The notes under the pieces are model-generated. The model searched no databases. It saw only the letters and a list, made by a program, of their open reading frames with translations, and was not told the DNA's origin. Shown here in pieces: positions 13,351 through 58,145 of a DNA stretch of 64,000 bases. Each line of letters begins with the position of its first letter. The stretch's first letter is position 1. A program made the position numbers and the translations under genes. This stretch comes from Methylacidiphilum caldifontis (GTDB lineage Bacteria > Verrucomicrobiota > Verrucomicrobiia > Methylacidiphilales > Methylacidiphilaceae), in the NCBI RefSeq assembly GCF_017310505.1, contig NZ_CP065957.1, forward strand, positions 1 through 64,000, in the 5' to 3' direction.

Positions 13351-14595
13351 ATGCAACTTGTTGAATTTGCTGAATTTGAAAAAGTTATAGCTAGTGATAC
13401 AGCAATCCGTCGCCGACAGAAACTCCAGCCGGTTGGAGGCCAAGGTGACAAGATCTTTCCGCCTACCTATCCACCTGAAGGAAATGGACCGCCGCGTCAT
13501 GTCTATGAACGGCGTCGCTTCCCTGATGGAGAAAAATGGTGTGTGCTTGTCGACAGTGTACAGTCTCAAGCAAATCGACTTGAGGAAGCCCTGATTGCGC
13601 TAGTCGAGGGAGGTCTGTCGATCCCTCACATCATCGTCGATTTTACTGAGACAGATATTCAAGGAATTGGCAAGATCACTTCCTTGCAGGCTCCTCATCG
13701 TGTCTACGATGCAATTTTACGAGACAGCGAATTGGACGGCATTCCTTTTTTGAATAGTGAGCTTGGGAAGCGCCTTGTCAGGGCGAGTTTAGCTGACGCT
13801 TCGTCACTGCTTGAGGTTGATCCTGCATCACTTCTTTTTGGAGCTTGGCACTCAACAGGACAGGGAGGTGGTCTTAATCCTCGGTTTATGCGATGTCTTG
13901 TCTCTGAGATCGTGGCCGTGGATGTTCCAGTTGAGGAAGTTCGAGACAATCGCACCAACCAGCCAGAAATTCGAACAGCCGCGCGGAGAACCGCAAGCAG
14001 GATTGATCCATTAGGCATATTGCGTGGGGTAGAGGTTTACAAAAGCAAGACGAACTGGGATACGGAGAAAAGAGAAGATGAGAAATCCCAAAAGGCGAGA
14101 CCTTCCGAGATCGGCCATTCAAACATCCGTCCCACGATCGAACCTCTTGGCATCACCTGCGACTATATCGAACATAGTTTTGTCCTTAGCTTTGCTGCTT
14201 TGCGCCGCCTTCGATTCGGCTCTGAGGAGAAAAACATCGTGGGACGCAGCTTGATTGCCACGCTTGGCCTTCTCGCGATTCACGAGCAGGATAGACGTGG
14301 TTATGCGCTTCGATCGCGATGCAATCTGGTCTGCAAGGGAATGGCTCCTCTTGAACTGATCCACCCGGATGGTTCCACCGACATTTGCGAAATGGATTTG
14401 GAATCTGCGATTAAACTCTACAAAAAAGCTTACGAGGAAGCGAAAAAGGCTGGCTTTTCATTAATGGGTGAGCCTGTCATTCTTAAACCTCAAAAGAAGC
14501 TAGTGGAGATTGTGAAAATGAGTCAGGAGCTTGCCCTTTCAGGAGAGGGCGGTCAGGCGGATAAAGCGAGAACTGAAGATGACCTTGGTCCTTGA
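13351..14595 (+). CDS. csb1: Type I-G CRISPR-associated protein Cas7 (Csb1, GSU0053 family), 414 aa
   Basis: Backbone subunit of the type I-G (formerly I-U) Cascade effector, which coats the crRNA spacer. Family signatures seen are the N-terminal KIFPPTYPPEG stretch and WCVLVDSVQSQANRLEEAL, followed by LLFGAWHSTGQGGGLNPRF and the basic RTAARRTASRIDPLGI region. The length agrees with Csb1 proteins. It is the first gene of a four-gene operon. Its 3' end overlaps the start of csb2 by 17 nt. Base composition is richer in G+C than the flanking genes, consistent with horizontal acquisition. The start has no strong Shine-Dalgarno sequence. Confidence 0.9.
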   Translation: MQLVEFAEFEKVIASDTAIRRRQKLQPVGGQGDKIFPPTYPPEGNGPPRHVYERRRFPDGEKWCVLVDSVQSQANRLEEALIALVEGGLSIPHIIVDFTETDIQGIGKITSLQAPHRVYDAILRDSELDGIPFLNSELGKRLVRASLADASSLLEVDPASLLFGAWHSTGQGGGLNPRFMRCLVSEIVAVDVPVEEVRDNRTNQPEIRTAARRTASRIDPLGILRGVEVYKSKTNWDTEKREDEKSQKARPSEIGHSNIRPTIEPLGITCDYIEHSFVLSFAALRRLRFGSEEKNIVGRSLIATLGLLAIHEQDRRGYALRSRCNLVCKGMAPLELIHPDGSTDICEMDLESAIKLYKKAYEEAKKAGFSLMGEPVILKPQKKLVEIVKMSQELALSGEGGQADKARTEDDLGP

Positions 14596-16033
14596 AATTG
14601 AATATCTAATGGGAGTCTGTTTTGCAGCTGTAAGCCCTGATAGCCCCAAGCCCGATTGGCCTCCGCAGCCTGATCGCGTTTTTTCGGCTCTTACTGCGGC
14701 ATGGGCAGCTCGAGGTGAAGATCCTAAGGAAGCTGAAGCCCTTCGATGGTTAGAGAAACTCCCTCCGCCTGGCATTATTGCTTCAGAATCAAAGAATCGG
14801 TCCGCGCCGACTGTCTTTGTTCCAGCCAACGATGCCTCATTTAAGGTTAAAAAGCATGCAAACCATGTACTTCCTGCAACACGTAACCGCAATGAGCGGT
14901 TTTTCCCAGCGGCTCTTCCAGCCAACCCAGTTGTTAGGTATTATTGGCCTGAAATTCTTCCAACTGAAAATACTCTGGCCATGCTCAATGGGATCGCGCA
15001 AGATACAGCCTACGTCGGCCATTCCTCAAGCCTGACGCGTTGCAGGTTCTTTCTTGTCGACTGCTCCATTCCTAAAGATATGAAGTCTCCAAATCGGCGC
15101 GTTTATCCGGGTCGTTTTGATGAACTCGTACAAAGATTCCAAAACGAGCTGCGACCCAATCCTGGCGACTTGTTTCAGTCATCTCCTTCTCCTGAAGAAT
15201 GTCGGGTAACTAGTTTGTTTGACAGCCGATGGCTGATTCTCGAGCATGTTGATGGTCAAATGCCGGACATCCGGGCTTGCGCCATCCTTGCAAAGGCTCT
15301 GCGCGATACCTTGCTGAGCGGATACCGACGTATTGGACTTGGGCAAAGCATTCCCGAGCTCATAAGCGGTCATGATGCCTCGGGAAGACCGACGCGGCTT
15401 CACCATCTGGCCATCATACCACTGCCCTTCGTTGGATTTCCCTACGCGGATGGAACTTTGCTTGGTCTTGCGCTTACCCCACCTCGGACTAGCGCGCTAC
15501 TCGACGATGAAAACTTTTTAATAGTTTTGCGAAGTTTGGCTCCCTTTGATAGCAGCTTCCGGCGGATACTCACCCTTGTCACCAAGATAGGAACTCCCTC
15601 CGACCGTGCCTTCTCGATTAGTCTCTCTCCTTCTTTTGAACCCCCATCCAGCAAACGTTCTCTGGATCCTTTGCTCTATACCCGCCCCGCAAAGCTCTTT
15701 GGCACTGTCACACCCATTGTTCTTGACAGACATCTCAAAAAGAAGGGTGAGGATCGAATTGATGAAATTAATGAACAGGTTGTCCGAGCTTGTGATGATA
15801 TCGGTCTACCAGCACCGGTCGAGGTAGTGTCCCACAATTATTCAGCGATTAGGGGAACTCCTCCGGCATATCCTCCGAAAGGATCGCCCACGTGGCTTCG
15901 TTGGATGTTGCCAGCTTCACTAGCAAGTCGTTCTCTTACTCATGCAGTTATTCGTTTCTCCCAGCCTATCGAGGGGCCTGTAATATTGGGTGCTGGACGA
16001 TTCGTTGGTTTTGGGTTATGCCGACCGATATAA
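14579..16033 (+). CDS. csb2: Type I-G Csb2, Cas5-Cas6 fusion (GSU0054 family), 484 aa
   Basis: In type I-G systems this protein combines the Cas5 subunit with the Cas6 ribonuclease that cuts the repeat hairpin to make crRNA. Seen: the Cas5-like N-terminal start (VLEIEYLMGVCFAA, then WPPQPDRVFSALTAAWAARG) and a C-terminal RAMP fold ending in the glycine-rich loop ILGAGRFVGFGLCRPI. An upstream in-frame ATG at 14531 would add 16 residues inside csb1. I choose 14579 because the family starts at the first RAMP strand, leaving a 17-nt overlap with csb1. The cognate substrate would be the CCGAGG/CCTCGG repeat hairpin of the array about 3.9 kb downstream. Confidence 0.88.
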   Translation: MTLVLEIEYLMGVCFAAVSPDSPKPDWPPQPDRVFSALTAAWAARGEDPKEAEALRWLEKLPPPGIIASESKNRSAPTVFVPANDASFKVKKHANHVLPATRNRNERFFPAALPANPVVRYYWPEILPTENTLAMLNGIAQDTAYVGHSSSLTRCRFFLVDCSIPKDMKSPNRRVYPGRFDELVQRFQNELRPNPGDLFQSSPSPEECRVTSLFDSRWLILEHVDGQMPDIRACAILAKALRDTLLSGYRRIGLGQSIPELISGHDASGRPTRLHHLAIIPLPFVGFPYADGTLLGLALTPPRTSALLDDENFLIVLRSLAPFDSSFRRILTLVTKIGTPSDRAFSISLSPSFEPPSSKRSLDPLLYTRPAKLFGTVTPIVLDRHLKKKGEDRIDEINEQVVRACDDIGLPAPVEVVSHNYSAIRGTPPAYPPKGSPTWLRWMLPASLASRSLTHAVIRFSQPIEGPVILGAGRFVGFGLCRPI

Positions 16034-16046
16034 AGGAAACGTGATT

Positions 16047-18944
16047 ATGCTGAGTGTTGGTGACTTTTCTGAATTTTTATTTGAGGTTTATGGTTACCGG
16101 CCATTTCCCTGGCAGCAGAGGCTTCTCGAGCAGATTGTCCGAGATGGGCATTGGCCGAAAGTCATTGATTTGCCGACGGGCTCAGGAAAGACAGCAACAA
16201 TCGACATTGCGATCTTTCATCTGGCACTTGAGGCAGGAAAAAGAGAGAGTCGTCTTGCCCCTGTGCGTGTCGTCTTCGTGGTTGATCGCCGCTTGATTGT
16301 CGATGATGCATTTGGACGCGCTAGAAAGCTGGAGCGGGCCCTTTCCACCCCATCTGGTCCCATCACTAAAAAGGTGGCACAGAGGCTCGCAAAGCTTTCG
16401 TGCAATGGTACTCCATTGAGCGCGTATCGTTTGCGGGGAGGAATCCCCAGAGAGGAAGATTGGGCGCGTACTCCTTCACAGCCAATAGTTATTTGCTCCA
16501 CGGTTGACCAAATTGGTTCACGTCTTTTGTTCCGCGGATATGGAGTATCGAATACAATGAAGCCGGTTCACGCGGGCCTGATCGGATCTGATTGTTTGAT
16601 TCTATTGGACGAAGCTCACTTGGCTGAACCGTTTCGACAAACTCTCGATTGGGTGCACGTTTATCATGGGGATAAGTGGCGTGAGACTCATGTGACCTCT
16701 CCCTGGGGATTCGCGCTACTCACTGCAACTCCTGGAAAAGACCTTCAAAGGAATGCCTTCACGCTGGACGAAGAAGACCGAGCTGATCCTATTTTGAGCA
16801 GGCGGATGAAGGCTTCCAAACCCGCTCGACTCGTTTCTTTGCCTTTGGATGGAAAAAAGGAAAATACGAAGGTGGAAGTGGAAAAAGAGTTTACAAAACA
16901 AATTTATCTCGCTCTAGATCACTTCCAGCGGAAAGAAAATGGAGTGGCTACTCCAGCAATCGCCGTTGTGGTCAACACGGTATCTAAGGCACGGGTGCTT
17001 TTTGAGCAAATACAGAAAGATATGAGTGAAAAATCCGATTGCATTTTGCTGATCGGGGCGGCTCGTCCGGTGGATCGGGAAGGCCTCGAGCAGCGTCTAG
17101 ATCCAATCCGTACAGGAGCTTCTCGCACGCTTGAAAAACCGTTTATCCTCGTGGCGACGCAGTGTGTAGAAGCTGGAGTGGACATTGACCTGGATGCCCT
17201 AATCACCGAAAACGCTCCTTTGGATTCTCTCCGCCAGCGGTTCGGACGGCTCAACCGCGATGGTCGTCCAATCATGCCCTATGCGGCAATCCTCGGTTCT
17301 TCCGGCAAGGATCTTGTTTATGGTGAGGCAAGTTGTCATGCCTGGAAAGCCTTGTTACAAGTTGCCCACGATCACGGCATAGATATCATTGAATTCGGAG
17401 TGGATGCATTTCGCGTTCCTATGAAAAACGAAGCTCTAACTAGGAAAGAGGATGCCCCAGTACTTCTCCCCGCTCATCTTGACCTTTTAAGCCAGACCTC
17501 TCCGATTCCTTCTCCAGATCCAGAGATATCGCTTTATCTTCACGGGGCCAATCAGGAGCCGGATTCAATTTCAGTGATTTGGCGTTCTGATATTGATATC
17601 TCTTTTGAAGAGAAACAAATTAGGCGTCTTTTCATGCTTGTGCCTCCGAGGGCTGCTGAAGCCATTGAGTTGCCTCTGTGGGCAGTGCGATGTTGGCTTG
17701 AGGGAAACAGACAAAGTGCATCCGATCTTGGAGATGTAGCTGGCAATCAATTGTTAGAGGAAAGAAGGACTGGAAATGAAAATCGTGTCTTTCGTTGGAG
17801 AGGAGACGACGAGGAGTCTAAGTGGATTTTTCCTAGAGAAATATGCCCTGGCGACACCATTGTAGTTCCCGCAAGCTATGGTGGGGTGGATGAATTCGGA
17901 TGGAACCCCATGCGGACAGTTCCAGCAACCGATGTTGCTCAGAAAGCCGCCAATGCATTTGCCACCCGACAGTTTGCCGTTCGAGTGGCTCCGGGACTCC
18001 TAGGGGAATCTGTAGATAGTGAAGACTTGGCTGCTGCACTGGCAAGGAGTCCCTTCCAGCAACCTTGGGAATTACTGAATGCTGTCCGTGGGCTCGATTT
18101 ACCAGAGGATCTTGCAAAGGCTCTCGACGCCCTCACTCATGCAAAAAAGAGAAACTTAGCCGCATACCTGGATCTGTATGGGGAAGATGAGGAGAGCCGT
18201 TATCGCGGGGTAGTGTTTGTCGCTCCTTTTGGAATCGAAAGTGAAGCAAGGGAAGAAGGCGGTTTTACTGCCACGGAAAATGATTTTGTGGGATCGCTTC
18301 CGGGATTCCCTATCCCATTGGAAATTCATAGCGCCGATGTGGAACGCAAAGCCGAAGAGTTTGCAATAGCCGTTGGGCTCTCAGAAGAGCGTATCGTGGA
18401 TCTGAAGTTAGCGGGTTTTCTGCATGATCTAGGAAAGGTAGATCACCGTTTTCAGCAATGGCTACACTATGGTGATCCACTGGGTGTCGATCAGGAAAAT
18501 GGACAATCGGTGCTAGCTAAATCTGGCTATCCCATGCTCATGGCTTTGCGAACCAAGGTTTATCTTCCAGCGCATTGGCGACACGAAGCACTCTCGGTGC
18601 GAATTGCCGTTGAAACCAAGCGATTTGCCGAAGCCAAGGATCCTGAACTTGTACTCTGGCTCATTGGTACCCATCATGGGTATGGACGACCATTTTATCC
18701 CCATCGTGATGAGGAAGATAATAAGCTTCGGCAGCTGCCGAATATCATGGGTTTGCCTCCAAAGCTTGAGCCTGGAGCCGGTCCGCAATCTCTTGGTTTT
18801 GATTGGAATGGTTTGGATTGGTCAATGCTCTTTGAGCGGCTCAAGGCCCGATACGGTATTTGGGAGCTTGCACGCATGGAAGCCATTCTCCGGTTGGCCG
18901 ACCATCGTGCGTCTGAGGAAGAAGCGGGGAGGGAAATTAAATGA
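16047..18944 (+). CDS. cas3: CRISPR-associated helicase/nuclease Cas3 with C-terminal HD domain (type I-G), 965 aa
   Basis: The interference nuclease-helicase recruited by Cascade to degrade target DNA. Domain order is helicase first, HD nuclease last, as in type I-G. Walker A PTGSGKT is at residues 43-49 and the DEAH box at 188-191. Helicase motif VI is represented by the LRQRFGRLNRDG segment. The HD signature FLHDLGKVDHRF has H793-D794. The start at 16047 is chosen over an upstream in-frame ATG (15990, inside csb2) because AAGGA lies about nine bases before it. The gap to csb2 is 13 nt, and the 3' end overlaps the next gene by four bases (ATGA). All key catalytic motifs are intact, so interference should be possible. 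Confidence 0.93.
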   Translation: MLSVGDFSEFLFEVYGYRPFPWQQRLLEQIVRDGHWPKVIDLPTGSGKTATIDIAIFHLALEAGKRESRLAPVRVVFVVDRRLIVDDAFGRARKLERALSTPSGPITKKVAQRLAKLSCNGTPLSAYRLRGGIPREEDWARTPSQPIVICSTVDQIGSRLLFRGYGVSNTMKPVHAGLIGSDCLILLDEAHLAEPFRQTLDWVHVYHGDKWRETHVTSPWGFALLTATPGKDLQRNAFTLDEEDRADPILSRRMKASKPARLVSLPLDGKKENTKVEVEKEFTKQIYLALDHFQRKENGVATPAIAVVVNTVSKARVLFEQIQKDMSEKSDCILLIGAARPVDREGLEQRLDPIRTGASRTLEKPFILVATQCVEAGVDIDLDALITENAPLDSLRQRFGRLNRDGRPIMPYAAILGSSGKDLVYGEASCHAWKALLQVAHDHGIDIIEFGVDAFRVPMKNEALTRKEDAPVLLPAHLDLLSQTSPIPSPDPEISLYLHGANQEPDSISVIWRSDIDISFEEKQIRRLFMLVPPRAAEAIELPLWAVRCWLEGNRQSASDLGDVAGNQLLEERRTGNENRVFRWRGDDEESKWIFPREICPGDTIVVPASYGGVDEFGWNPMRTVPATDVAQKAANAFATRQFAVRVAPGLLGESVDSEDLAAALARSPFQQPWELLNAVRGLDLPEDLAKALDALTHAKKRNLAAYLDLYGEDEESRYRGVVFVAPFGIESEAREEGGFTATENDFVGSLPGFPIPLEIHSADVERKAEEFAIAVGLSEERIVDLKLAGFLHDLGKVDHRFQQWLHYGDPLGVDQENGQSVLAKSGYPMLMALRTKVYLPAHWRHEALSVRIAVETKRFAEAKDPELVLWLIGTHHGYGRPFYPHRDEEDNKLRQLPNIMGLPPKLEPGAGPQSLGFDWNGLDWSMLFERLKARYGIWELARMEAILRLADHRASEEEAGREIK

Positions 18945-19900
18945 GAGAAGCGCTTCGGCTTGAAGGTCTTGAACCGGATAATTTGTTGGCATTTCTTGCA
19001 CTGCTAGGGCTACTCCGAGCGTTGGAAGAGGCGGATGGATCATTCCTACCTAGAGCAGCCTGGGATGTAGATATCCATCCCATGAGACCAAGGCTCTTTT
19101 TGTCGCGTCCCGTTGAGCCGGAATCGATTGCTGAAGCTGTGGATAAAGGAATTGTTGTTCTTTCCAAGGGGTATAACTTTGACGGAAGAAAGGATTTAAA
19201 CTATTCGCGCGATGATTGCCGCACACTACTGGAGCAGGAGGGACGGGAAGCGATTCTCGGTTCTCGCTGGCGTGTCGATCTCTTGGCATCGCTCATGAGC
19301 GATGCGGCTATTGAGAAAAATAGTATCGATCCTACACCTTTATGTCTTTTGACCGGCCAGGGACATCAGCACTTTCTTGAAAGACTAGCTAAAGTTCCGA
19401 GCTTCTCAGAGCCTCTGAGACGCAGCCAGAAAGGGAAAAAGGTCCATGTTTTTTCAGCACAATGCATTGCCGAAACCCTGTTTCACCCCTGGCATTATGG
19501 AGATCCGACTCCCTCTTTCCGGTGGGATCCTCAAGAAGAAAGGCGCTATGCGCTTCTCTATGGAGATCCAAGCAAGACCAATACAACAACGCAGCACGGC
19601 GCGAACCGGCTAGCGGCCGTTGGAATTGGTACTCTCACCTTGGTTCCACAACTCCGATCAAATAGTGTGCGAGCTAATATTCTCGGCGGATCCTTCGAAA
19701 AGGGGGAATTTTCCTTTGCTTGGCCGATATGGCGCAAGCCGGCCACGCTCTCTGCCATCCGAGGCATGCTTGCTCACCCAGGATTGAGAAAGGAAAATGG
19801 GCTCTCCCATTTGGGAGTAGATTATGTCATGGTTGCAAGACGGATTCAGTACGGGTACTATAGTAACTTTGTTCGTGCTGTTCCCTTACATCGTTTATGA
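18941..19900 (+). CDS. Type I-G Cas8-like / 'Cas3-extension' subunit, 319 aa
   Basis: Last gene of the cas operon, starting in the four-base ATGA overlap with cas3. The N-terminus (LRLEGLEPDNLLAFLALLGL) is the signature start of a type I-G large-subunit-type family that sits next to or fused with Cas3. By position it corresponds to Cas8u2 of the Geobacter-type locus. It is much shorter than Csx17 (about 700 aa), and it lacks the NPGQ-type start I associate with Csb3. Family membership is clear from context; exact naming (Cas8g, Cas8u2, Cas3-extension) is less sure. It would take part in PAM recognition or R-loop stabilisation. The CRISPR array begins 25 nt after its stop codon. Confidence 0.75.
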   Translation: MREALRLEGLEPDNLLAFLALLGLLRALEEADGSFLPRAAWDVDIHPMRPRLFLSRPVEPESIAEAVDKGIVVLSKGYNFDGRKDLNYSRDDCRTLLEQEGREAILGSRWRVDLLASLMSDAAIEKNSIDPTPLCLLTGQGHQHFLERLAKVPSFSEPLRRSQKGKKVHVFSAQCIAETLFHPWHYGDPTPSFRWDPQEERRYALLYGDPSKTNTTTQHGANRLAAVGIGTLTLVPQLRSNSVRANILGGSFEKGEFSFAWPIWRKPATLSAIRGMLAHPGLRKENGLSHLGVDYVMVARRIQYGYYSNFVRAVPLHRL

Positions 19901-19925
19901 TCATAATGCTCTGTCATGCTTTTTA

Positions 19926-20620
19926 CTTCAATGAAGCCGAGGCCTTACACATCCTCGGAAACATACCTAAAAATTAGCAACTTAATGGAAATGATCTTCC
20001 TTCAATGAAGCCGAGGCCTTACACATCCTCGGAAACCGTTACCTTGACGTTTACGGGAATATCGGAGTTGCACTTCAATGAAGCCGAGGCCTTACACATC
20101 CTCGGAAACGGTTTTGCTACTCTAGAAGGTTCGCAAGACAATACCCTTCAATGAAGCCGAGGCCTTACACATCCTCGGAAACCTGATTACATTTTCATTT
20201 CAGTTGTTGACCATTCGCTTCAATGAAGCCGAGGCCTTACACATCCTCGGAAACAAGGACATTGATCCGCTCATTGTTGATTTTATTTCTCTTCAATGAA
20301 GCCGAGGCCTTACACATCCTCGGAAACTTTCATCATTTTTACCTTATTTTGGTTAATTTTTAACTTCAATGAAGCCGAGGCCTTACACATCCTCGGAAAC
20401 CGTTACCTTGACGTTTACGGGAATATCGGAGTTGCACTTCAATGAAGCCGAGGCCTTACACATCCTCGGAAACAAATCTATAAATCCCTCAGAAGCTTCC
20501 TGGGCTTCACTTCAATGAAGCCGAGGCCTTACACATCCTCGGAAACCATATTTCCAATACAAAGGCACAGGAGACCAGAAATACTTCAATGAAGCCGAGG
20601 CCTTACACATCCTCGGAAAC
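19926..20620. CRISPR. CRISPR array, 10 identical 37-nt repeats, 9 spacers (type I-G)
   Basis: Repeats begin at 19926, 20000, 20073, 20146, 20218, 20291, 20364, 20437, 20510 and 20584. All ten are identical: on the + strand they start CTTCAATG and end CTCGGAAAC. Each holds a 6-bp stem CCGAGG/CCTCGG with a 10-nt loop, a good substrate for the Cas6 part of Csb2. Spacers are 35-37 nt; the second (20037-20072) and seventh (20401-20436) are identical. Orientation: the reverse complement starts GTTTCC and ends CATTGAAG, which resembles the usual type I crRNA 5' handle, so transcription from the right (minus strand) is favoured. Only 25 nt separate the array from the cas operon on the left, too little for a leader there. 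Confidence 0.97.
20037..20072. repeat. Spacer 2, exact duplicate of spacer 7 (20401-20436)
   Basis: Both copies are 36 nt, begin CGTTACCTTG and end CGGAGTTGCA, and match at every position. Four different spacers separate them. Identical spacers inside one array usually come from repeat-mediated recombination or segment duplication rather than independent acquisition. Confidence 0.95.
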
Positions 20621-22012
20621 TGCCCCTTTGTAACTCATTGCCTTGCAAAGCATAAAATTCTGTTTTGCGAGCATTTCCCAGAAATAAGATTACACCATGA
20701 TACTCGGATGACATTGTTAAAGATCAACAACCATCTCTACACGGATATTTCTTCAGTAAATTATATCGAAAATGAAAAAAGTCAATTCCAGATGATCATC
20801 GCTCACCAATAGTCTTTGGGTTTTGGTTTGTGGATACCGATTCGATTATTGAAACGTGACCATTGAAGAGAGCAACGAAAGGATAAGATATCACTTTAAG
20901 GGGATTTCAAAACTAACGTGATATATCTGCTGATGATGAGCGGAAAGTCTGTGTGTAGATGGTTTAGGAGAACTGGGAATACCTGCTTATTCATTTTATA
21001 ATGACATAAGGAGTGCATTGCAAGAAGTAAATGTTTACAACAAGAAATGGTAAACTTCTAGGGTGGAGATTCAGCAGTTGCGTCAGCAAGTTGCTCTTGG
21101 AATATCAGCCGGAGATCTTAAATCTTCTTCAAGAAAAGTTGATTCAGTAATGTCGATTTAATTTGAATAAGGAGACAGCGTATGCATACAAGATTGGCTA
21201 ATCTTTTTTATCAAAGACACAACAACCAAAACAACCAGAGGAATCTAAAAACTTCCTGCTTCACAGGAAGGGCATGGAAGAATCGACTCAGTGAAGGTTG
21301 AAGAAGAAGGAAAATAATTTTCTGTTCTGCCTTACTCTGCCATTTAGAAGAACAGGCGAAGAGTGTGAGGTGATCAAGGTTTTAAAGTATCAGGCAGAAA
21401 TTGGTGAGGATATAGAATAGAGCCGAATTAAAGGCTAACCAGGGTAGGTAGTTGTACCAAGGAGATCGCCTAAAGCGATAGAGCACATGAAGATATTATT
21501 CACTGATACCTTTAGTTATCTATTTGGTTCCGAGTCTGTTGCTAATTTAAAATCGATAACCAGAGCTTCACATGATTGTAGATTCGGATTTTCGTTTGCT
21601 AAGGATATTTCAGCAGGACTGTTAGGTAGCTCTTGTACTTGGAATATCCTTGATTTAAGCCATGTGAGCCTTTTGTTGTGTGTGAGAGCTTTCGATTCGA
21701 AACCTTAGCCAAGGATCGGCGTCTACAAGATAGCAGTTACCCTGACGCTTTTCCCCTGCATAGTCAATTAACCATGTACGTTAATTTTTTATCAATCAAA
21801 TGAATTTATCTCTTCCATTCAGAGATATCTGTTCACATTATTCCACTTAAGGTTAGATTCAGGCAGTCTTTTGCTGCTATTCTTTGCGCAAACATTATTT
21901 GGATAAGAAAAGCTTGTTATAAGAAGAGTCCGCTTTGTTTAAGTAATGCTCAGGGAGGAAGACTGAACCAAAAAAACTTAAAAACCAATTACCTTGCCAG
22001 ACCTAAAAAGCG
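20621..22012. other. 1.4-kb decayed interval right of the CRISPR array
   Basis: No intact gene is supported. The first bases right of the array would hold the leader if the array is transcribed leftward. A transposase relic lies at about 20933-21053. A 73-codon frame at 21487-21708 has no recognisable domain and a poor ribosome site. This is the place where cas4-cas1 and cas2 would be expected, but I see no trace of them. Confidence 0.55.
20933..21053 (+). pseudogene. Probable relic of an IS66-type transposase accessory gene (helix-turn-helix)
   Basis: One frame reads MMSGKSVCRWF. After a one-base shift the next frame reads GIPAYSFYNDI and LQEVNVYNKKW before a stop. Joined, this resembles the 'SGKSV..F.RELGIP..SFY.WR..LQE' helix-turn-helix of IS66/IS3-type accessory proteins. 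Broken frame and short length indicate decay. Identification is by eye and tentative. Confidence 0.35.
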
Positions 22013-51129: not shown

Positions 51130-52374
51130 TAAGATTGAGTTTTTCATGGGTTAGCCGCTGTCTATTAAATCATTAAGCAAGAGAGAATGGTTCAGATTAT
51201 TTTCCTTTTTTTGACCATGGGATTTTCATAAAACTTCAATTGAGCGTTCTCCAAAGTAGTTTATCGTTATATTGGTTCAATGGATTTACTGGATAGGGAA
51301 AAGCATAAAAAGATTTTTTTTTGCCTCAAAAGAAAGAATATCGTCAGTGCAAATAGCCGGGAAATTGGATTTGTAAAGAAAATCAAAAGATTCAATAATA
51401 AGGGAGTGTTGACAGAAACTACAGGGAAAATAGTTCTTTTTTATGTTATGAAATAAGAATATAAAGAGGGCGGTTATTTTATTAATGTAAGGGAATCAAT
51501 TGGCAAAATTACCGGCTGATCGGTGTAGACCCCTGTATTGCTCTTCTTTGATATCCCACAATACTACTTGAAAGATATGCTCATTGTTCTAGTTTGTTTT
51601 TAAAAGATCTGTTTTTTCTGGTTCAGGATACAACTTTTTGTACATAAATAGCCTTGGCCTTATGAACTACTCCTGCCAACCTGATGGTATGGCGTGAGTT
51701 TCGCGCTTCTACGAGAGTATTAACTCTCTCCACGCTTGGCCGGTTCCCGGCCAAACAATCTGTTTTGTGAATATACTAAACTTCCATTCAATGTCAACAA
51801 AATCGCTCTGACAGACGATATCGCCGCTTCACCACCACCTAAATCTCCGCGCGATTATGGGTGGAGCACTGCGGCGTAAGTTCGGTAGATTTTATTATTA
51901 TTATTAACAATTATATCCCATTTCTCATGTATCTAAGCATAAAGGGATGTTTTTATGGTTGAACATAACCAAGGTGCAGCTGGATTTTATGCCTTACCAG
52001 TATTGGTTTTATCTATTATAAGCAGCTTTCTAAGCCCATTAACTTGAAGTTTTAACATTTCATTTCAAAAACACCAAGCGCTATTTCTCAGACTTTTTTT
52101 ATAGCTTTAAGTAAAAAATCGACCGATGCTGAACTTCCTTGGTGTTCATATCCTGGAGCTTAAGTTTTTTTTTCAATGATAACTACTAAAAGTATGGATG
52201 GTAGTTTAAATTGTATATATTTTGAATTTAATACTTTATGAATATCTGATATTCAGAAATTTTAAAATTGCGGAGAAATATTTTGAAAAAAAATAATTTT
52301 CACAAATAAATTTTGTTGTTTATTTGATTTAAAAATGTTATATAATTTTAAAAATTAAGATAGGAGAAACCACA
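51130..52374. other. 1.2-kb gene-free interval with a GC-rich block of inverted repeats
   Basis: No gene is supported. Most of the interval is AT-rich, but 51660-51880 is clearly richer in G+C and full of inverted repeats (see the separate entry). A 50-codon stop-free stretch on the minus strand overlaps those repeats but has no start codon. The last 30 bases contain the ribosome site AGGAGA of the next gene. Confidence 0.5.
51692..51876. other. Cluster of inverted repeats, possible structured RNA or insertion-sequence end
   Basis: GCGTG (51692-51696) pairs with CACGC (51731-51735), enclosing GAGAGT/ACTCTC (51713-51728, 4-nt loop). Directly next is TTGGCCGG/CCGGCCAA (51736-51754, 3-nt loop). 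Further on, CGCCGC (51822-51827) pairs with GCGGCG (51871-51876), with an inner CCACC/GGTGG. Such closely packed stems in an AT-rich setting suggest a folded RNA or the end of an IS605-type element. Confidence 0.4.
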
Positions 52375-52620
52375 ATGATTGAATTACCTATTAAATGGCA
52401 AAAATCTTCTTATCAACCCCATTTAATTGCTCTTATTGATTCCAAAGGAAAATGGATTGCTGATGTCCCTAATGACGAGATTGCTATGATAATTATTTCA
52501 GCTTTGGAAGAAAGATTAAAAAGGTTAAACAATCCTGTAGAGAAATTAGAAGAGAAAAAAAAAGTGACCAAAGCACCGGCACCCAGAGGAAATCGAAATC
52601 GACTTAGTTCAATTGGGTAA
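52375..52620 (+). CDS. Small hypothetical protein, 81 aa
   Basis: I do not recognise this protein. It is supported by a good ribosome site (AGGAGA nine bases before the ATG) and by a protein-like sequence. The N-terminal half is beta-rich (LPIKWQKSSYQPHLIALIDS), followed by a helix (MIIISALEERLKRL) and a basic, low-complexity tail (KKKVTKAPAPRGNRNRLSS) that could bind nucleic acid. It is flanked on both sides by long gene-free intervals. Confidence 0.55.
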   Translation: MIELPIKWQKSSYQPHLIALIDSKGKWIADVPNDEIAMIIISALEERLKRLNNPVEKLEEKKKVTKAPAPRGNRNRLSSIG

Positions 52621-53507
52621 TAGCTAAGAGTAAGAATTCAATTAAATAAATAATTTTTTAGTTTTTTTTGAATAAAAAAATTTAAAATTTAGGATGTTCT
52701 TTGCTTTGAATCTAAAAAAGAGGCTGAAAACAATAGAATTATACTTGCCTACTTGAACTGACTCAATTTCTATTATTAAAGGCTGATTGCCTTTTTATTT
52801 AAAATAGATAAGATCGGTCTTGCTCTTGGCTTATGTATTAAACAAGCATAAGAACTGTTCGATCTAGTAGAAGGGCAGTTTGATTTTGACAATTAAGACA
52901 TTGCCCAGATTGAGCAAGAGATCCTAAACTATCTAAGGTCCAATTCCTGACTCTAATAAAATATAAAGAGCATTTTTGAAATCCATAGATCTGGATGATT
53001 ATCTTTGTAATGTAGGCTAAAATAAAAATTATATTGATCATTGCGAATAGTGAGGAAATAGAATTAATTTATAAAATCCATAGATGGGATTTGGGTTTGA
53101 GTATTTTTTTTTGATGGCTACATTAATATCTAATCCCGCATGAAATTTTCATAAAATATCACTAAATTTCCCAAAACAAGATTGCTTGGTAATAGGTTAG
53201 TCTATTGTTCCTGATAATGGATTGGATATTACGCATGGTTCGGGAGTATTGAACTGAGCAACGGATCTGGCTATAGTTATACTTTTAGTATTGAAAATAA
53301 GGCCTAAAGATGATATCTGAGTTTTATTGATTTGGCTAATGAATCAAAAAATCTACATAAACAAACACATCAAATAACATCTTTATTATAAGAAAAATAA
53401 TGTTTTTTTCTCCTTTATAAGAAGGGAAGAGGTCCCTTTAAGTTTAAGCTGTTCACAAGTAGAAAGTTGTTTTTATTATTTAATTTTAAACTTTCTAAAA
53501 AACCGTT

Positions 53508-53519
53508 TTAGCCGGCTAA
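53508..53519. promoter_or_regulatory. 12-bp palindrome upstream of the RiPP operon, possible operator
   Basis: TTAGCCGGCTAA is perfectly self-complementary and stands out as GC-rich in an AT-rich interval. It lies about 75 nt upstream of the proposed -35 element, where an activator or metal-sensing regulator could bind. The role is inferred from symmetry and position only. Confidence 0.25.
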
Positions 53520-53593
53520 GGCTATTAGAAAAAATATCATGGCTATTTAGCAAAAAGCTGAGTGATGTATAAGAAACAAGAAACAAAAGTAAA

Positions 53594-53622
53594 TTGACAT
53601 ATTTTTGATAAACAATTACAAA
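53594..53622 (+). promoter_or_regulatory. Putative sigma-70 promoter of the RiPP operon
   Basis: A consensus -35 TTGACA (53594-53599) is followed after exactly 17 nt by TACAAA (53617-53622, four of six matches to TATAAT). This would give a 5' untranslated leader of about 50 nt before the precursor ATG at 53680. Confidence 0.5.
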
Positions 53623-53679
53623 TAATGAACCCAAAATAGCTAAAAACTAATTTTAAATTTTAAAAAGGGAGCAATTCTC

Positions 53680-53901
53680 ATGAAAAAACCAGTTCATTCT
53701 GCGGTAGTTGGATCGGTTATTTTAGGGATCCTTGCTGGAACAGCTTTAAGTGGACAGGTCAAAGGCCTCAATAAAATTGCCGGAAAATCTGCTGATCCTA
53801 GAGCTTTTGCTGAGATGAGTTGTAAAGGAAAGCAAAGTTGCAAGGGAAAGAAGAAAGGTAAAAAAGGAGAAAAACCTCAGGCTTCCACTTCTTGTTGTTA
53901 G
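53680..53901 (+). CDS. Bufferin-like RiPP precursor peptide, secreted, 73 aa
   Basis: Small peptide with a signal sequence (basic start, then a hydrophobic core at about residues 8-24 ending near ALSGQ) and a Lys/Gly-rich C-terminal half with four Cys: 48 and 54 in SCKGKQSCKGKKKG, and the terminal pair 72-73. It stands directly before DUF692 and DUF2063 genes, as do bufferin precursors (BufA), in which core Cys residues are converted by the MNIO oxidase into copper-binding heterocycles. The CKGxxxCKGK spacing is like BufA2-type sequences. GGGAG lies eight bases before the ATG. It is not a classic DUF2282 sequence, so the precise subfamily and the modified residues are inferred. Confidence 0.72.
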   Translation: MKKPVHSAVVGSVILGILAGTALSGQVKGLNKIAGKSADPRAFAEMSCKGKQSCKGKKKGKKGEKPQASTSCC

Positions 53902-53966
53902 ACTTGTTGATATTTTAAAGTGTTATTAAAAGCTAAGCTATCTTTTGAGCTGCAACTCCATTATTC

Positions 53967-54800
53967 ATGGCTTTTGACTACGCTAGCTTTTTCAAGGACT
54001 ATCAGATAGGAATCGGACTAAGGATTCCTCATTATCAACATATTTTACAAAAGAAACCGGTAGTCAGTTGGTTTGAAATTATTTCCGAAAATTTCATGGG
54101 TAATGGAGGAAAACCTGAAATTCTATTGGAAAAGATACTTCAAGATTATAGAGTTGTTCAACATGGAGTAGGGCTTTATTTCGGATCAGTCGATCCCTTT
54201 AATTGCGACCATTTAAGACGACTGAAGAAGTTGGTCAAAAAAACAAAAACCCCCTGGTTAACAGATCATCTGGCTTGGGGTAGTGTAGATGGTCGCTACG
54301 TTCACGATCTTTTGCCCATGCCTTATACATTGGCTGCGGCTAAGCTGACGGCACAAAAGATTAAGCAAGCACAGGATTTTCTTGAGATTCCCATCGGAGT
54401 GGAAAACATAAGCAGCTATGCTCAGTATTGTGCTTCAAGGATGACCGAATGGGAATTCCTCACCGAAGTGGTTGAGCGAGCCGATTGCGCCATTCTGCTT
54501 GATGTAAATAATCTGTATGTAAATTCTCAGAACCATGGGTTTGATCCTTATGATTACTTAAATCACATTCCCCTTAATAGGATTATTCAACTTCATATTG
54601 CTGGGCATAGCCGCCTGGAAAACTATATCTTGGACACTCACGATCATCCTGTCTCAGAGCCCGTGTGGAGGCTTTATGAAGAAGTCATCAGACATGCTGG
54701 TCCAAGGCCGACATTGTTAGAATGGGATGATTCGATCCCCTCCTTTGATGAAGTTTATAATGAAGCGCTTAAAGCCAAATCCTACCTTGAAACTTTCTAG
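53967..54800 (+). CDS. DUF692 multinuclear non-heme iron oxidase (MNIO, BufB-like), 277 aa
   Basis: TIM-barrel oxidase of the family that includes MbnB (methanobactin) and BufB. Strong DUF692 features: IGLRIPHYQHIL, WFEIISENFMGNGG, VVQHGVGLYFGSVDPFN, TDHLAWGSVDG, VENISSYAQY, LLDVNNLYVNSQNHGF, IIQLHIAGHS and LLEWDDSIPSF. Candidate iron ligands are His66, His101, Glu146, Asp179, Asn181, His210, His227 and Glu252. In known systems it oxidises Cys in the precursor to thiooxazole or oxazolone-type groups. It lies 65 nt after the precursor gene and overlaps the next gene, so the three form one operon. Confidence 0.92.
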   Translation: MAFDYASFFKDYQIGIGLRIPHYQHILQKKPVVSWFEIISENFMGNGGKPEILLEKILQDYRVVQHGVGLYFGSVDPFNCDHLRRLKKLVKKTKTPWLTDHLAWGSVDGRYVHDLLPMPYTLAAAKLTAQKIKQAQDFLEIPIGVENISSYAQYCASRMTEWEFLTEVVERADCAILLDVNNLYVNSQNHGFDPYDYLNHIPLNRIIQLHIAGHSRLENYILDTHDHPVSEPVWRLYEEVIRHAGPRPTLLEWDDSIPSFDEVYNEALKAKSYLETF

Positions 54801-55728
54801 TTCGATATTCCTCGATGCGGAAACAGTAGAAAATCTTAAAGAACTCCAGCGTGTTGTTTTGGGTTTGATTCGCTCTCCACTGACGGCAAGAGATCGGATG
54901 AGAAAGAAAACCGCACAAGGGCAGTCTGTTCTCAAGCTGGCCCAGAACATTATCAAGCCGACTGCTTCGATGAGCTCTTTTGAACGGCTTGAAGTTTATA
55001 ACCAACAGTATTGGTTTAAGATCCTGGAAGCTTTTAGAGAGGATTTTGCTGGTCTTTATCTTCTTCTTGGAGAAAAAAGCTTTAGAAAAGTTGTGGAGTA
55101 TTTCCTCGATAAATATCCTCCTCATTATCCTACTCTTTGGAATATTGGAGAAAAATTAGATCAATTTTTAAAAGAGAACCCGGGCTTGCTTGGCTTTCAT
55201 CACGATGCAGCGATCGATATGGTGAGGCTCGAAAAAGCTCTCTTTGTTGCTTTTGATGCTCCTGAGCGGCCCCCAATCAGTTCAAAAGAAATAGTAGAAG
55301 GTTCCTTAGAAAATTTACAGATTGATCTTCAACCGCATATTAGCCTTTTGGAGCTTAAGTTTGAGGTCGAAAATTTTATTGCCTCAAATTCCCAAAAATC
55401 TTACGACAATTTGAGTGAAAAAGCTATAACCGATAGAAGAAAAAAACTAAAAGAGAAACGCAACCAGAGAATAAGTCTTAATCAAAGAAAACACTGGATA
55501 GTTGTGCATCGTTTTAGAAATATTCCTTATATCAAAGAGATAGAATATCCGGCTTTTTGTTTTCTGCGTGCTTTAAAAGAGAAACATTCTTTAGCTGAAG
55601 CTTCCGAATCATTCATATCTGAAAATCAGAATGAGCCAGATAACACCTTCCTTTTGAAAATTGGACAATGGACTCAGGAATTTACTTTATTAGGATGGTT
55701 TTGCCTGTGGAAAGAAAAAATGGAGTGA
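54760..55728 (+). CDS. DUF2063-family partner protein (BufC-like), 322 aa
   Basis: The N-terminal part (ENLKELQRVVLGLIRSPLTA, then SFERLEVYNQQYWFKILEAF and REDFAGLYLLLGEKSFRKVV, with YPPHYPTLWNIGEKLDQFL) is the DUF2063 domain that pairs with DUF692 enzymes. The partner is thought to present the leader peptide to the oxidase. The C-terminal half (from about residue 170) contains a charged Lys/Arg-rich stretch not typical of short DUF2063 proteins. In-frame ATGs at 54727, 54748 and 54760 all lie inside the DUF692 gene; I take the last, giving a 41-nt overlap, but none has a strong ribosome site. Translational coupling is likely. Confidence 0.85.
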   Translation: MKRLKPNPTLKLSSSIFLDAETVENLKELQRVVLGLIRSPLTARDRMRKKTAQGQSVLKLAQNIIKPTASMSSFERLEVYNQQYWFKILEAFREDFAGLYLLLGEKSFRKVVEYFLDKYPPHYPTLWNIGEKLDQFLKENPGLLGFHHDAAIDMVRLEKALFVAFDAPERPPISSKEIVEGSLENLQIDLQPHISLLELKFEVENFIASNSQKSYDNLSEKAITDRRKKLKEKRNQRISLNQRKHWIVVHRFRNIPYIKEIEYPAFCFLRALKEKHSLAEASESFISENQNEPDNTFLLKIGQWTQEFTLLGWFCLWKEKME

Positions 55729-56649
55729 AAAGCCAGCCCTGGGCTTTCTAAGCATTTGGCATTAATGGTTAAAGACGGAATGAATGCCTATCAAGATGGA
55801 CTACAGTTCGATTAAATCACAGCGAGCAACCAAGGGAGTTTTTCAAAAGTAGGATAGATGATTGTTTCAAAAAAATGGACTTTTGCTGTTTACATACTTT
55901 ACAAGGACTGAATGAGTTGAGGCTTAAGCTCATAGAAGAATTTAGGCAATACAGTTGAATGAAATGGTTATGCTCTTGGATTGATTATCCTACAGGTTTG
56001 GTGGTGAGCCTAGTTTGATATTACCGATGTGAGAAGTTAGGTTCTAGCCTCTATCTTGAGCCTAGAATAAAAGAAGTTTCTATGAGTATTGAAGCAATCA
56101 GCTTTATTCTAGACTAATCAAAAATGTGTAAATTTTAAGATAGCCTCTAAAACCTTGTCGAAACATAATAAAAAGCAAATCCCCACACAAGAACAAACAA
56201 CAGGATAAAAACAAAAATAAAGACAGGAAATTTCATAGAAACTGTCTGCTTACATTTATACTGACACATCTTTAAAAATTGAACAGATTAAAAAAAAACA
56301 AATTTTTGTCTTTTATTCGATTTTGCTTCTTCTATGCTGCTTGGGTTTTTTAGACCAAAGGATAAAGCCTGTTCCAAAAAACATGACTCAAATAGGCTTA
56401 CTTTCATTGGCTATTCTTGTTCGAGCCAATTCACTCTATATGCAAAGCTTTTTATCCTTTTTTTGGCTGGTCATTTTCTACCTGTAATACTGCTGGATTG
56501 CCGGACTCCGATATACTGGAATAACACCTTTCTGGAACAAAACTCTAGAACCTTTTGACGCGATGTTCCATTAATCAGGTATAGGGCATGAGGTAGTTTT
56601 AAAGAAACAGAGTTTGACTTTTTGAAACCAAAAAAACAAGATATGTTCA
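55729..56649. other. 0.9-kb gene-free interval after the RiPP operon
   Basis: No gene is supported. A 74-codon frame (56334-56558) has no ribosome site or recognisable family. A short stem (AAAGCC/GGCTTT near 55730-55746) follows the operon stop but has no T tract. The rest is AT-rich with stop codons in all frames. Confidence 0.45.
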
Positions 56650-57018
56650 ATGGCTGACAAATTGTTCATTTATATTAAACCGACTTGTTCTACTTGTCGT
56701 AAAGCTGTAGCTCTTCTTGAAGAGTTGAAGGTAGTTTACGAACCGATCGATTATTTCGCTCATCCACTTAGCAAGGAAAAATGGTCTATACTTTTGAAAA
56801 AAATAGGTCTAAAACCTTCAGAAATCCTGAGAACAAAAGAAGAAGCTTATAGTCGACTCGGAATAGCTAAATTCCAATATTTAGATGAAGCTCTTCTTGA
56901 TATTATCGCTAGTCATCCGGAGATAATTCAGAGACCGATTGTTGAATATAAAGATAAAGCTATTTTGGGAAGACCACCGGAAAAAATCCGGGAATTTGTC
57001 CTTTCTCTTCAGTCTTAG
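56650..57018 (+). CDS. ArsC/Spx-family protein, arsenate-reductase-like, 122 aa
   Basis: Thioredoxin-fold protein of the ArsC/Spx/YffB group. The N-terminal motif YIKPTCSTCRKAVALLEELK has a CxxC (Cys-Ser-Thr-Cys), followed by YEPIDYF, LKPSEILRTKEEAYSRLG and the conserved RPIVEYKDKAILGRPPEKI. The CxxC and length suit YffB/Spx-like members as well as ArsC, so arsenate reduction is possible but not proven. No arsenic-resistance genes are adjacent. It is convergent with the aminotransferase gene, five bases apart. Confidence 0.82.
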   Translation: MADKLFIYIKPTCSTCRKAVALLEELKVVYEPIDYFAHPLSKEKWSILLKKIGLKPSEILRTKEEAYSRLGIAKFQYLDEALLDIIASHPEIIQRPIVEYKDKAILGRPPEKIREFVLSLQS

Positions 57019-57023
57019 CTGAT

Positions 57024-58145
57024 TTAACTTTTTAAAATATTCTCTAGGGCATCCAGTAATTGATCAATATATTTCTGCTGAGCACCTTCGGCCATAAGAC
57101 CAATCCGCCATATTTTTCCTTTAAGAGGACCCAATCCTGGACCTATTTCAATTCCGTATTGATCAAGGAGTTTTTTGCGGAGGAGGGCTTCGTCTTTTCC
57201 TTCCGGGACTTTAACAGCGTTAAGCTGCCAGAGCCGGCGATTTTCAGGAGTAAAAAACGTAAGGCCAAGTTTGGAAAGACCTTTTTTTAATTGAAGATGG
57301 GCGTTTTGGTGACGTTCCCATCTTTTCTGAAGTCCTTCTTCGAGAATTAACCTAAGCGCTTCATGTAAACCGAAATTGTTGTTGATTGGGGCTGTATGAT
57401 GATAAATGCGTTCGGTTCCCCAATATCCGTGGAGCAAGCTACAATCAAAGTACCAACTTGGGATTTTTGTTTTTCTTTTCAAGACGACTTCCATGGCTTT
57501 TGGACTAAAGGAAACAGGAGCTAATCCAGGTGGAGCCCCAATACATTTTTGAGTCGCACTAAAAGTGGCATCTACCTTCCAACGGTCAATGAATACGGGA
57601 CTTCCTCCTAGGGAGGTAACTGTATCGAGGATAAAAAGAGCACCACTTTGGGAAATAAGAGGGGCGAGTTCTTCCACGGGATTGCCTATTCCAGTGGAGG
57701 TTTCAGCATGAACTAAGGCAACGAGTTTGGGTTGAGTCTTTTCGAGGGCTTTTTGAAGCTCTTCAGCTTCGATAGATTCTCCCCATGGAACTTCAAGAGT
57801 ATGGACATCGGCTCCAAGTTTTAGGGCAAGGTCAGCGATACGTCTTCCAAAAAGGCCATTGATCCCAATAAGAACCTTGTCCTGGGGTTCAACCAAGTTA
57901 ACAAGACAAAACTCCATCCCTGCACTACCTGTCCCGCTTATGGGGAAGGTAAATTCATTTGAAGTTTGAAAAATTTCCCGTAACATCCTTTTGATTTCAT
58001 CCATCAAAAGGAGAAAATAGGGATCGAGATGCCCAACAGGAGCACAACTCATTTTTTCTAGAATCGATTTAGCCACCATGCTTGGACCGGGTCCCATCAA
58101 TAACCGGTGAGGAATTTTAAGGGAAGGAATATCAAAAAAACTCAT
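57024..58145 (-). CDS. Class V PLP aminotransferase (alanine/serine-glyoxylate type), 373 aa
   Basis: Transfers an amino group to glyoxylate, relevant to photorespiratory or serine-cycle metabolism. Start RLLMGPGPSMVAKSILEKMS, then FPISGTGSAGMEFCLVNL, ALVHAETSTGIGNP, FILDTVTSLGGSPV and the PLP lysine in FSATQKCIGAPPGLAPVSFS. The pattern (GPGPS, HxETSTG, SxxQKC) is that of the AGXT/SGAT group, length about 370-390 aa. Donor specificity (Ala or Ser) cannot be decided. In a methanotroph it could dispose of glyoxylate from 2-phosphoglycolate; this is inference. Confidence 0.88.
   Translation of the reverse strand: MSFFDIPSLKIPHRLLMGPGPSMVAKSILEKMSCAPVGHLDPYFLLLMDEIKRMLREIFQTSNEFTFPISGTGSAGMEFCLVNLVEPQDKVLIGINGLFGRRIADLALKLGADVHTLEVPWGESIEAEELQKALEKTQPKLVALVHAETSTGIGNPVEELAPLISQSGALFILDTVTSLGGSPVFIDRWKVDATFSATQKCIGAPPGLAPVSFSPKAMEVVLKRKTKIPSWYFDCSLLHGYWGTERIYHHTAPINNNFGLHEALRLILEEGLQKRWERHQNAHLQLKKGLSKLGLTFFTPENRRLWQLNAVKVPEGKDEALLRKKLLDQYGIEIGPGLGPLKGKIWRIGLMAEGAQQKYIDQLLDALENILKS

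Follow-up and report, generated by a model that had tools for sequence, protein, structure and literature searches.

A putative minimal Buf2-type bufferin with a reduced cysteine core in the methanotroph Methylacidiphilum caldifontis

Bufferins of the Buf2 type are defined by precursors containing six or twelve cysteines, and the partner proteins of bufferins combine a DUF2063 domain with a RiPP recognition element (RRE) architecture (PMC12452194). A role for the signal peptide in precursor recognition is known for Buf1 (PMC12452194) and for HvfA (PMC13419390), and earlier work deduced the ring structure of Buf2 products from a loss of mass together with a band at 305 nm (PMC12452194). All characterised products of MNIO–PME1 pairs carry 5-thiooxazoles and generally bind copper; at the selectivity site of the enzyme, Phe marks those acting on Lys-Cys and Asp those acting on Cys-Lys, a contact of this Asp with the substrate Lys being proposed (PMC13097082). 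The survey in PMC12452194 also reports hundreds of unclassified MNIO-adjacent ORFs with signal peptides and 1–18 cysteines, of which the precursor described herein may be one.

The window analysed comprises the first 64,000 nt of the M. caldifontis contig NZ_CP065957.1. The original prediction for this DNA described a 73-aa signal-peptide protein, a DUF692 oxidase and an overlapping DUF2063 protein, forming a bufferin-type MNIO operon. The order and coordinates of all three genes were confirmed (Table 1), and the operon type is borne out by an enzyme that passes the bufferin maturase model and by a DUF2063/RRE partner, as detailed below. The arrangement A-B-C, with a Sec-type signal peptide on the first product, is that of a bufferin system; this signal peptide (approximately residues 1–25) was judged by eye, from a basic N-terminus followed by a hydrophobic stretch. 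In its longest frame bufC overlaps bufB by up to 74 nt, and either of the next two ATGs may be the true start. The interval of approximately 0.9 kb between bufC and the ArsC-family gene (55729–56649) is without a credible ORF, and the ArsC gene probably lies outside the bufABC operon. Upstream of bufA, and extending into it, positions 52001–54000 are AT-rich (30 % GC against approximately 40 %) and hold few credible ORFs. Promoter and terminator scans returned counts at or below shuffled expectation, the only Rfam element near the cluster is an upstream tRNA, and the DNA upstream of bufA is not alignable amongst congeners, such that a regulator site could not be proposed.

Table 1. Features of the bufABC locus and its downstream flank (window coordinates)
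Feature	Position	Strand	Remarks
bufA-like precursor	53680..53901	+	73 aa; Lys-rich mature part; Cys48, Cys54, terminal Cys72-Cys73
Core unit CKGKQSCKGK, residues 48-57	53821..53850	+	Two Cys-Lys sites, predicted modification targets
bufB, MNIO (DUF692) bufferin maturase	53967..54800	+	277 aa; PF05114, NF050167
bufC, DUF2063 + RRE-fold partner (PME-type 1)	54727..55728	+	Up to 333 aa (longest frame)
ArsC-family protein	56650..57018	+	Syntenic downstream neighbour, ~0.9 kb off
Class-V aminotransferase	57024..58145	-	Syntenic flank; marker for locating the empty site in G009

BufB is the sole PF05114 protein (346 bits) in the 2,254,698-base genome. It scores 335.7 bits against the NCBIfam bufferin maturase model NF050167, above the cut-off of 310 and hence at equivalog level, and falls under the cut-offs of the HvfB, ApyH, ChrH and MbnB models, in the last case (TIGR04159) with 39.9 bits against a cut-off of 325. 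Residues H66, H101, E146, D179, N181/N182, H210, D223, H225 and D254 are invariant in 98 aligned rows (which include some repeat fetches of one gene), and E252 is present in 97 of these; further alignments were made with 3BWW, TglH and MbnB. The assignment of individual residues to the iron sites was made by motif, following PMC13419390 and general features of the family. A DUF692 protein without intact metal ligands had been named as grounds for abandoning the original prediction; by alignment, the multi-iron site and the catalytic base Asp254 are intact, and they are kept in all 11 gene-bearing members of the family (Methylacidiphilaceae). The residue that follows this base is Asp255 in the window BufB and in all family members, and Phe in the HvfB-like 3BWW. 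At this position, BufB retains the Cys-Lys selectivity residue.

For BufC, the match to PF09836 (49.8 bits) exceeds the cut-off of 27.2. A sequence search of PDB chains gave only weak, unrelated matches (RNase H), making a fold comparison necessary, for which an AlphaFold2 model was built on 41 aligned relatives (mean pLDDT 85.5). This model resembles the gonococcal PME-type 1 protein 3DEE (Z 14.5, rmsd 3.9, 198 residues) and TglI (Z 12.6, 237 residues), as well as the RiPP recognition elements of lasso peptide systems (5v1u/5v1v/6jx3; Z 7.4–8.5 over approximately 85 residues). MbnC resembles the model only weakly, and there is no MbnC family match by sequence. As modelled, BufC is a PME-type 1 partner with DUF2063 plus RRE fold.

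Both assignments bear on the idea that the peptide is a chalkophore akin to methanobactin, i.e. secreted to bind scarce copper and then re-imported for methane monooxygenase. The host, a bacterium of hot acid ground, is a copper-dependent methanotroph, as had been supposed: this Methylacidiphilum genome holds three pmoA-family genes, pMMO requires copper, and growth of strain Kam1 ceased without it (PMC6688271). Methanobactin, moreover, goes unmentioned in the main review of verrucomicrobial methanotrophs, leaving their copper uptake unexplained. However, the enzyme is BufB rather than MbnB, the partner has the DUF2063/RRE fold, genes for an exporter, a TonB receptor and a di-haem partner are absent from the cluster, the Sec signal peptide indicates the periplasm rather than secretion, and a pMMO-bearing congener (G009) is without the cluster altogether. 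A chalkophore is consequently improbable. The copper acquisition originally suggested is unsupported, as no acquisition gene is found in the cluster, and formal classification as methanobactin was rejected on the TIGR04159 score and the missing MbnC family match.

The precursor is atypical, as had been noted, with four cysteines at the stated positions (48, 54, 72 and 73) and no family-model match. Pfam returned nothing for BufA beyond a weak DUF4869 hit (E 0.28), PF10048 (DUF2282) being absent; NF050166 (NCBIfam BufA2) gave no match at E 1; and four cysteines do not make up the six or twelve conserved in Buf2. Lysine accounts for 9 of the last 30 residues, and so the lysine richness that had been described holds, although at 30 % rather than about a quarter. 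The pairs C48-K49 and C54-K55, together with D255 of BufB, are those expected of a Cys-Lys captophorin. Between the window species and three congeners, residues 27–62 display a dN of approximately 0.07 against a dS of 1.6–2.3, with the reading frame kept: bufA is a genuine gene under strong purifying selection. The stretch SADPRAFAEMSCKGKQSCKGKKK is identical between the window species and these three congeners, as is CKGKQSCKGK across all four Methylacidiphilum species compared, and Methylacidiphilum sp. Yel (L019) and another genome of this genus (G011) have one and the same precursor. Variation is seen at the end of the protein, which reads TSCC, TSCWC or TSSWC within the genus, so that the constant cysteines are confined to Cys48, Cys54 and the final one. 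The terminal Cys-Cys pair noted previously is present here, but is local to this species rather than characteristic of the precursor type, as congeners end in SCWC or SSWC.

With regard to ancestry, the nearest relatives of BufB outside the family are 65–70 % identical, belong mostly to the Verrucomicrobiota and Acidobacteriota, and mostly accompany classic six-Cys Buf2 precursors, e.g. HACKGQNSCKGKGGCKASDNGCKGKNSCKGKGGC. The classic core found beside these enzymes is CKGKNSCKGKGGC-x6-CKGKNSCKGKGGC, and CKGKQSCKGK corresponds to the first half-unit of such a core. Three of the six-Cys relatives themselves score only 27–48 bits against NF050166, below its cut-off of 60. A Buf2 profile built from the relatives places BufA first of the 204 ORFs of the window, with 18.9 bits (the next scores 4.5); this exceeds 500 of 500 whole shuffles (maximum 17.1) and, narrowly, 500 of 500 tail shuffles (maximum 18.8). 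As the latter margin is small, homology of the core is argued mainly from the signal peptide, gene order, enzyme phylogeny and the CKGKxSCKGK motif. Precursors of the sister genus also pass the whole-shuffle test against this profile, with tails that score no better than their own shuffles, so that the link there consists of signal peptide, gene order and enzyme. The BufB tree groups all 11 family members in a single clade (98/88), nested among six-Cys Buf2 systems. Taken as common descent, these data indicate that the cluster derives from Buf2 (Cys-Lys) bufferins. The reference family chosen originally, DUF2282 (Buf1), was mistaken, since there is no PF10048 match and both the Buf2 profile and the BufB tree point to Buf2; filing under Buf1/DUF2282 was rejected on the same absence of PF10048.

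Within Methylacidiphilum, the precursors carry 4, 4, 4 and 3 cysteines, in the form of one CKGKQSCKGK unit and a terminal Cys. In the second genus of the family, all seven precursors possess only two, arranged in one CxxC and without any Cys-Lys. Amongst the other families of the order, six-Cys precursors accompany a near BufB in eight clusters (L116–L118, L120–L123 and L126, the enzyme of L126 being a fragment; L119 is cut by a contig end and lies outside this count), and a more distant MNIO (L124) adjoins a different six-Cys protein. Every readable precursor in those families thus has six cysteines, and the reduction is family-wide here. All 13 family genomes carry the pmoA family, and none of the 49 others of the order does, which suggests that core reduction is tied to methanotrophy; as this relation constitutes a single evolutionary event, it is suggestive rather than proof, and the family-level Fisher test (p = 6e-6) was set aside as evidence for the same reason.

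Elsewhere, a few other relatives have four-Cys precursors, and an Opitutus locus (L053) encodes a three-Cys precursor, CKGKDGCKGKDGCKAK, shortened independently; core reduction is consequently not unique to methanotrophs. Adaptation to low pH, which had been put forward, is not upheld, and acidity was rejected as the driver of reduction, since bog and acid-soil Acidobacteriaceae, including Paracidobacterium acidisoli, retain the classic six-Cys core. A record named 'Methylacidiphilum sp. Phi' (L073) has a BufB identical to that of L118, from a genome of another family of the order, and a six-Cys precursor with a CSGKDGC repeat; its name is probably a misassignment. In two Spartobacteria loci (L013 and L018) the precursor ends approximately 440 nt before bufB, a gap wide enough for a second small gene, and tandem precursors are possible there.

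The same series could be read as a pathway in decay, in which the precursor is losing metal binding and the enzymes persist by inertia. The cysteine count does drop in this family (six, then four, three and two), shuffled versions of the sister-genus tail fit the Buf2 profile at least as well, and the cluster is missing from two genomes (G009 and G012). Against this, residues 27–62 of BufA are under strong purifying selection, the active-site residues of BufB are kept in every gene-bearing family member (11/11), and three intact genes are maintained in two genera, making decay very improbable.

In Methylacidiphilum, the neighbours of the cluster keep their order: the ArsC-family gene, the class-V aminotransferase and a glycosyltransferase. 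G009, of the same genus and bearing pmoA, has the syntenic flanks without bufABC, and from this absence in a close relative it follows that the cluster is not essential to methanotrophy. The window aminotransferase is 84 % identical to that of G009 and 78–79 % to those of G008 and G010; with G009 closest, loss of bufABC there is likelier than late gain. At the empty site of G009 (L112, 6159–10664), TonB-receptor-like genes come after the flank; one of these is apparently fused or a fragmentary pair, and in style they resemble the window ORF at 8128–10812. A doxX gene lies near the cluster in 50 loci of relatives; it is absent at the window cluster, which counts against the bufferin reading given below, the one good DoxX of the genome being encoded elsewhere. 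At a distance from the cluster, positions 13351–20632 hold Type I-G (I-U/Dpsyc) CRISPR effector genes (Cas7g, Cas5/6g, Cas3g and Cas8g), followed by a repeat array with a spacing of approximately 73 nt, in which one spacer occurs twice (20000–20109 and 20364–20473 are identical). No cas1 or cas2 was seen among the longer ORFs adjoining this block, and its GC content of approximately 50 %, in a window of 40 %, suggests that it was acquired.

The ArsC neighbour raises the prospect of a buffer for another soft metal (Hg, Au, Ag) or against thiol/oxidative stress, or of an unmodified Lys-rich Cys peptide. Bufferin–MerC fusions and gold-induced clusters are known (PMC12452194), ArsC is syntenic, and the CxxC core of the sister genus lacks Cys-Lys. 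ArsC is, however, approximately 0.9 kb distant and still in place where bufABC is missing, BufB retains the Cys-Lys selectivity residue, and the cluster is without mercury or arsenic transport genes; this alternative is therefore also unlikely.

It is instead probable that the locus encodes a minimal Buf2-derived bufferin (a Cys-Lys captophorin) that serves as a periplasmic copper buffer, its Cys48 and Cys54 each turned into a thiooxazole. By analogy with Buf1 and HvfA, BufC would probably hold the precursor by its signal peptide, via the RRE fold. BufB, as a multi-iron oxidase, would then convert Cys48 and Cys54, each of which precedes a Lys, into 5-thiooxazoles with the loss of four H per Cys, a prediction derived from the enzyme class and the Cys-Lys selectivity residue; the terminal Cys probably remains a free thiol or disulphide. 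The modified peptide would be exported by Sec to bind copper in the periplasm, buffering it beside the copper-dependent methane monooxygenase. A core of two sites is plausible, as FonBC modified a minimal substrate of two repeats, and not one of a single repeat (PMC13097082). A folded six-Cys bufferin may, nevertheless, be a far stronger copper binder than two rings. A speculative extension, which we regard as unlikely, is that the bufferin of this family, the only one of the order to carry pMMO, was rebuilt as a carrier of low capacity, whose disordered, Lys-rich tail bears either two modified sites or a CxxC. Such a carrier would hand on periplasmic copper, perhaps for the assembly of pMMO, instead of storing an excess. 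If this were true, the smaller core would reflect a change of role, from detoxification to the trafficking of copper.

For a minimal Buf2-derived bufferin, the natural series of six, four/three and two cysteines offers a way of exploring the number of modified cysteines required in a bufferin and the substrates tolerated by an MNIO, and the cluster-less close relative provides a ready comparison for copper tolerance. Copper handling by verrucomicrobial methanotrophs at low pH has no description in the literature searched, which also reports no methanobactin from these organisms. With its core reduced step by step, the conserved bufferin-type system is a small, testable candidate. No publication joining MNIOs or bufferins with these organisms was found in that literature, and the original suggestion that such a peptide was not yet described there holds within the same scope, although the survey table of unclassified ORFs in PMC12452194 (Table S2) may list it.

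Of the systems described previously, methanobactin (MbnABC) shares with this locus an MNIO enzyme and a copper-dependent methanotroph host, and differs in that the MbnB model scores far under its cut-off here, a Sec signal peptide takes the place of a leader, and transport genes are missing. Caulobacter Buf1 (DUF2282) likewise has four precursor cysteines, a signal peptide and the same type of enzyme pair; the locus nonetheless has no PF10048 match, unrelated cysteine spacing and motif, and an enzyme with the Cys-Lys residue. Closer are the Cys-Lys captophorins (PMC13097082), which also combine an MNIO, a PME1 and a small Cys peptide, and with which the locus has in common two Cys-Lys sites and the selectivity-site Asp. 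Those studied are from Pseudomonadota, whereas the present example, predicted from its genes, has a core pared down to two sites, plus a terminal Cys, in a verrucomicrobial methanotroph. Buf2 (Buf_6/12Cys, BufA2 NF050166) corresponds in bufABC order, Sec-type signal peptide, BufB-type MNIO, PME-type 1 partner, the CKGKxSCKGK motif and BufB clade; unlike Buf2, with its six or twelve cysteines, the locus has four, and is without GGC half-sites, a second unit, an NF050166 match or a doxX neighbour. The system is thus known in kind, and its novelty is one of detail, namely a core whose six cysteines have dropped to four, three or two across the family.
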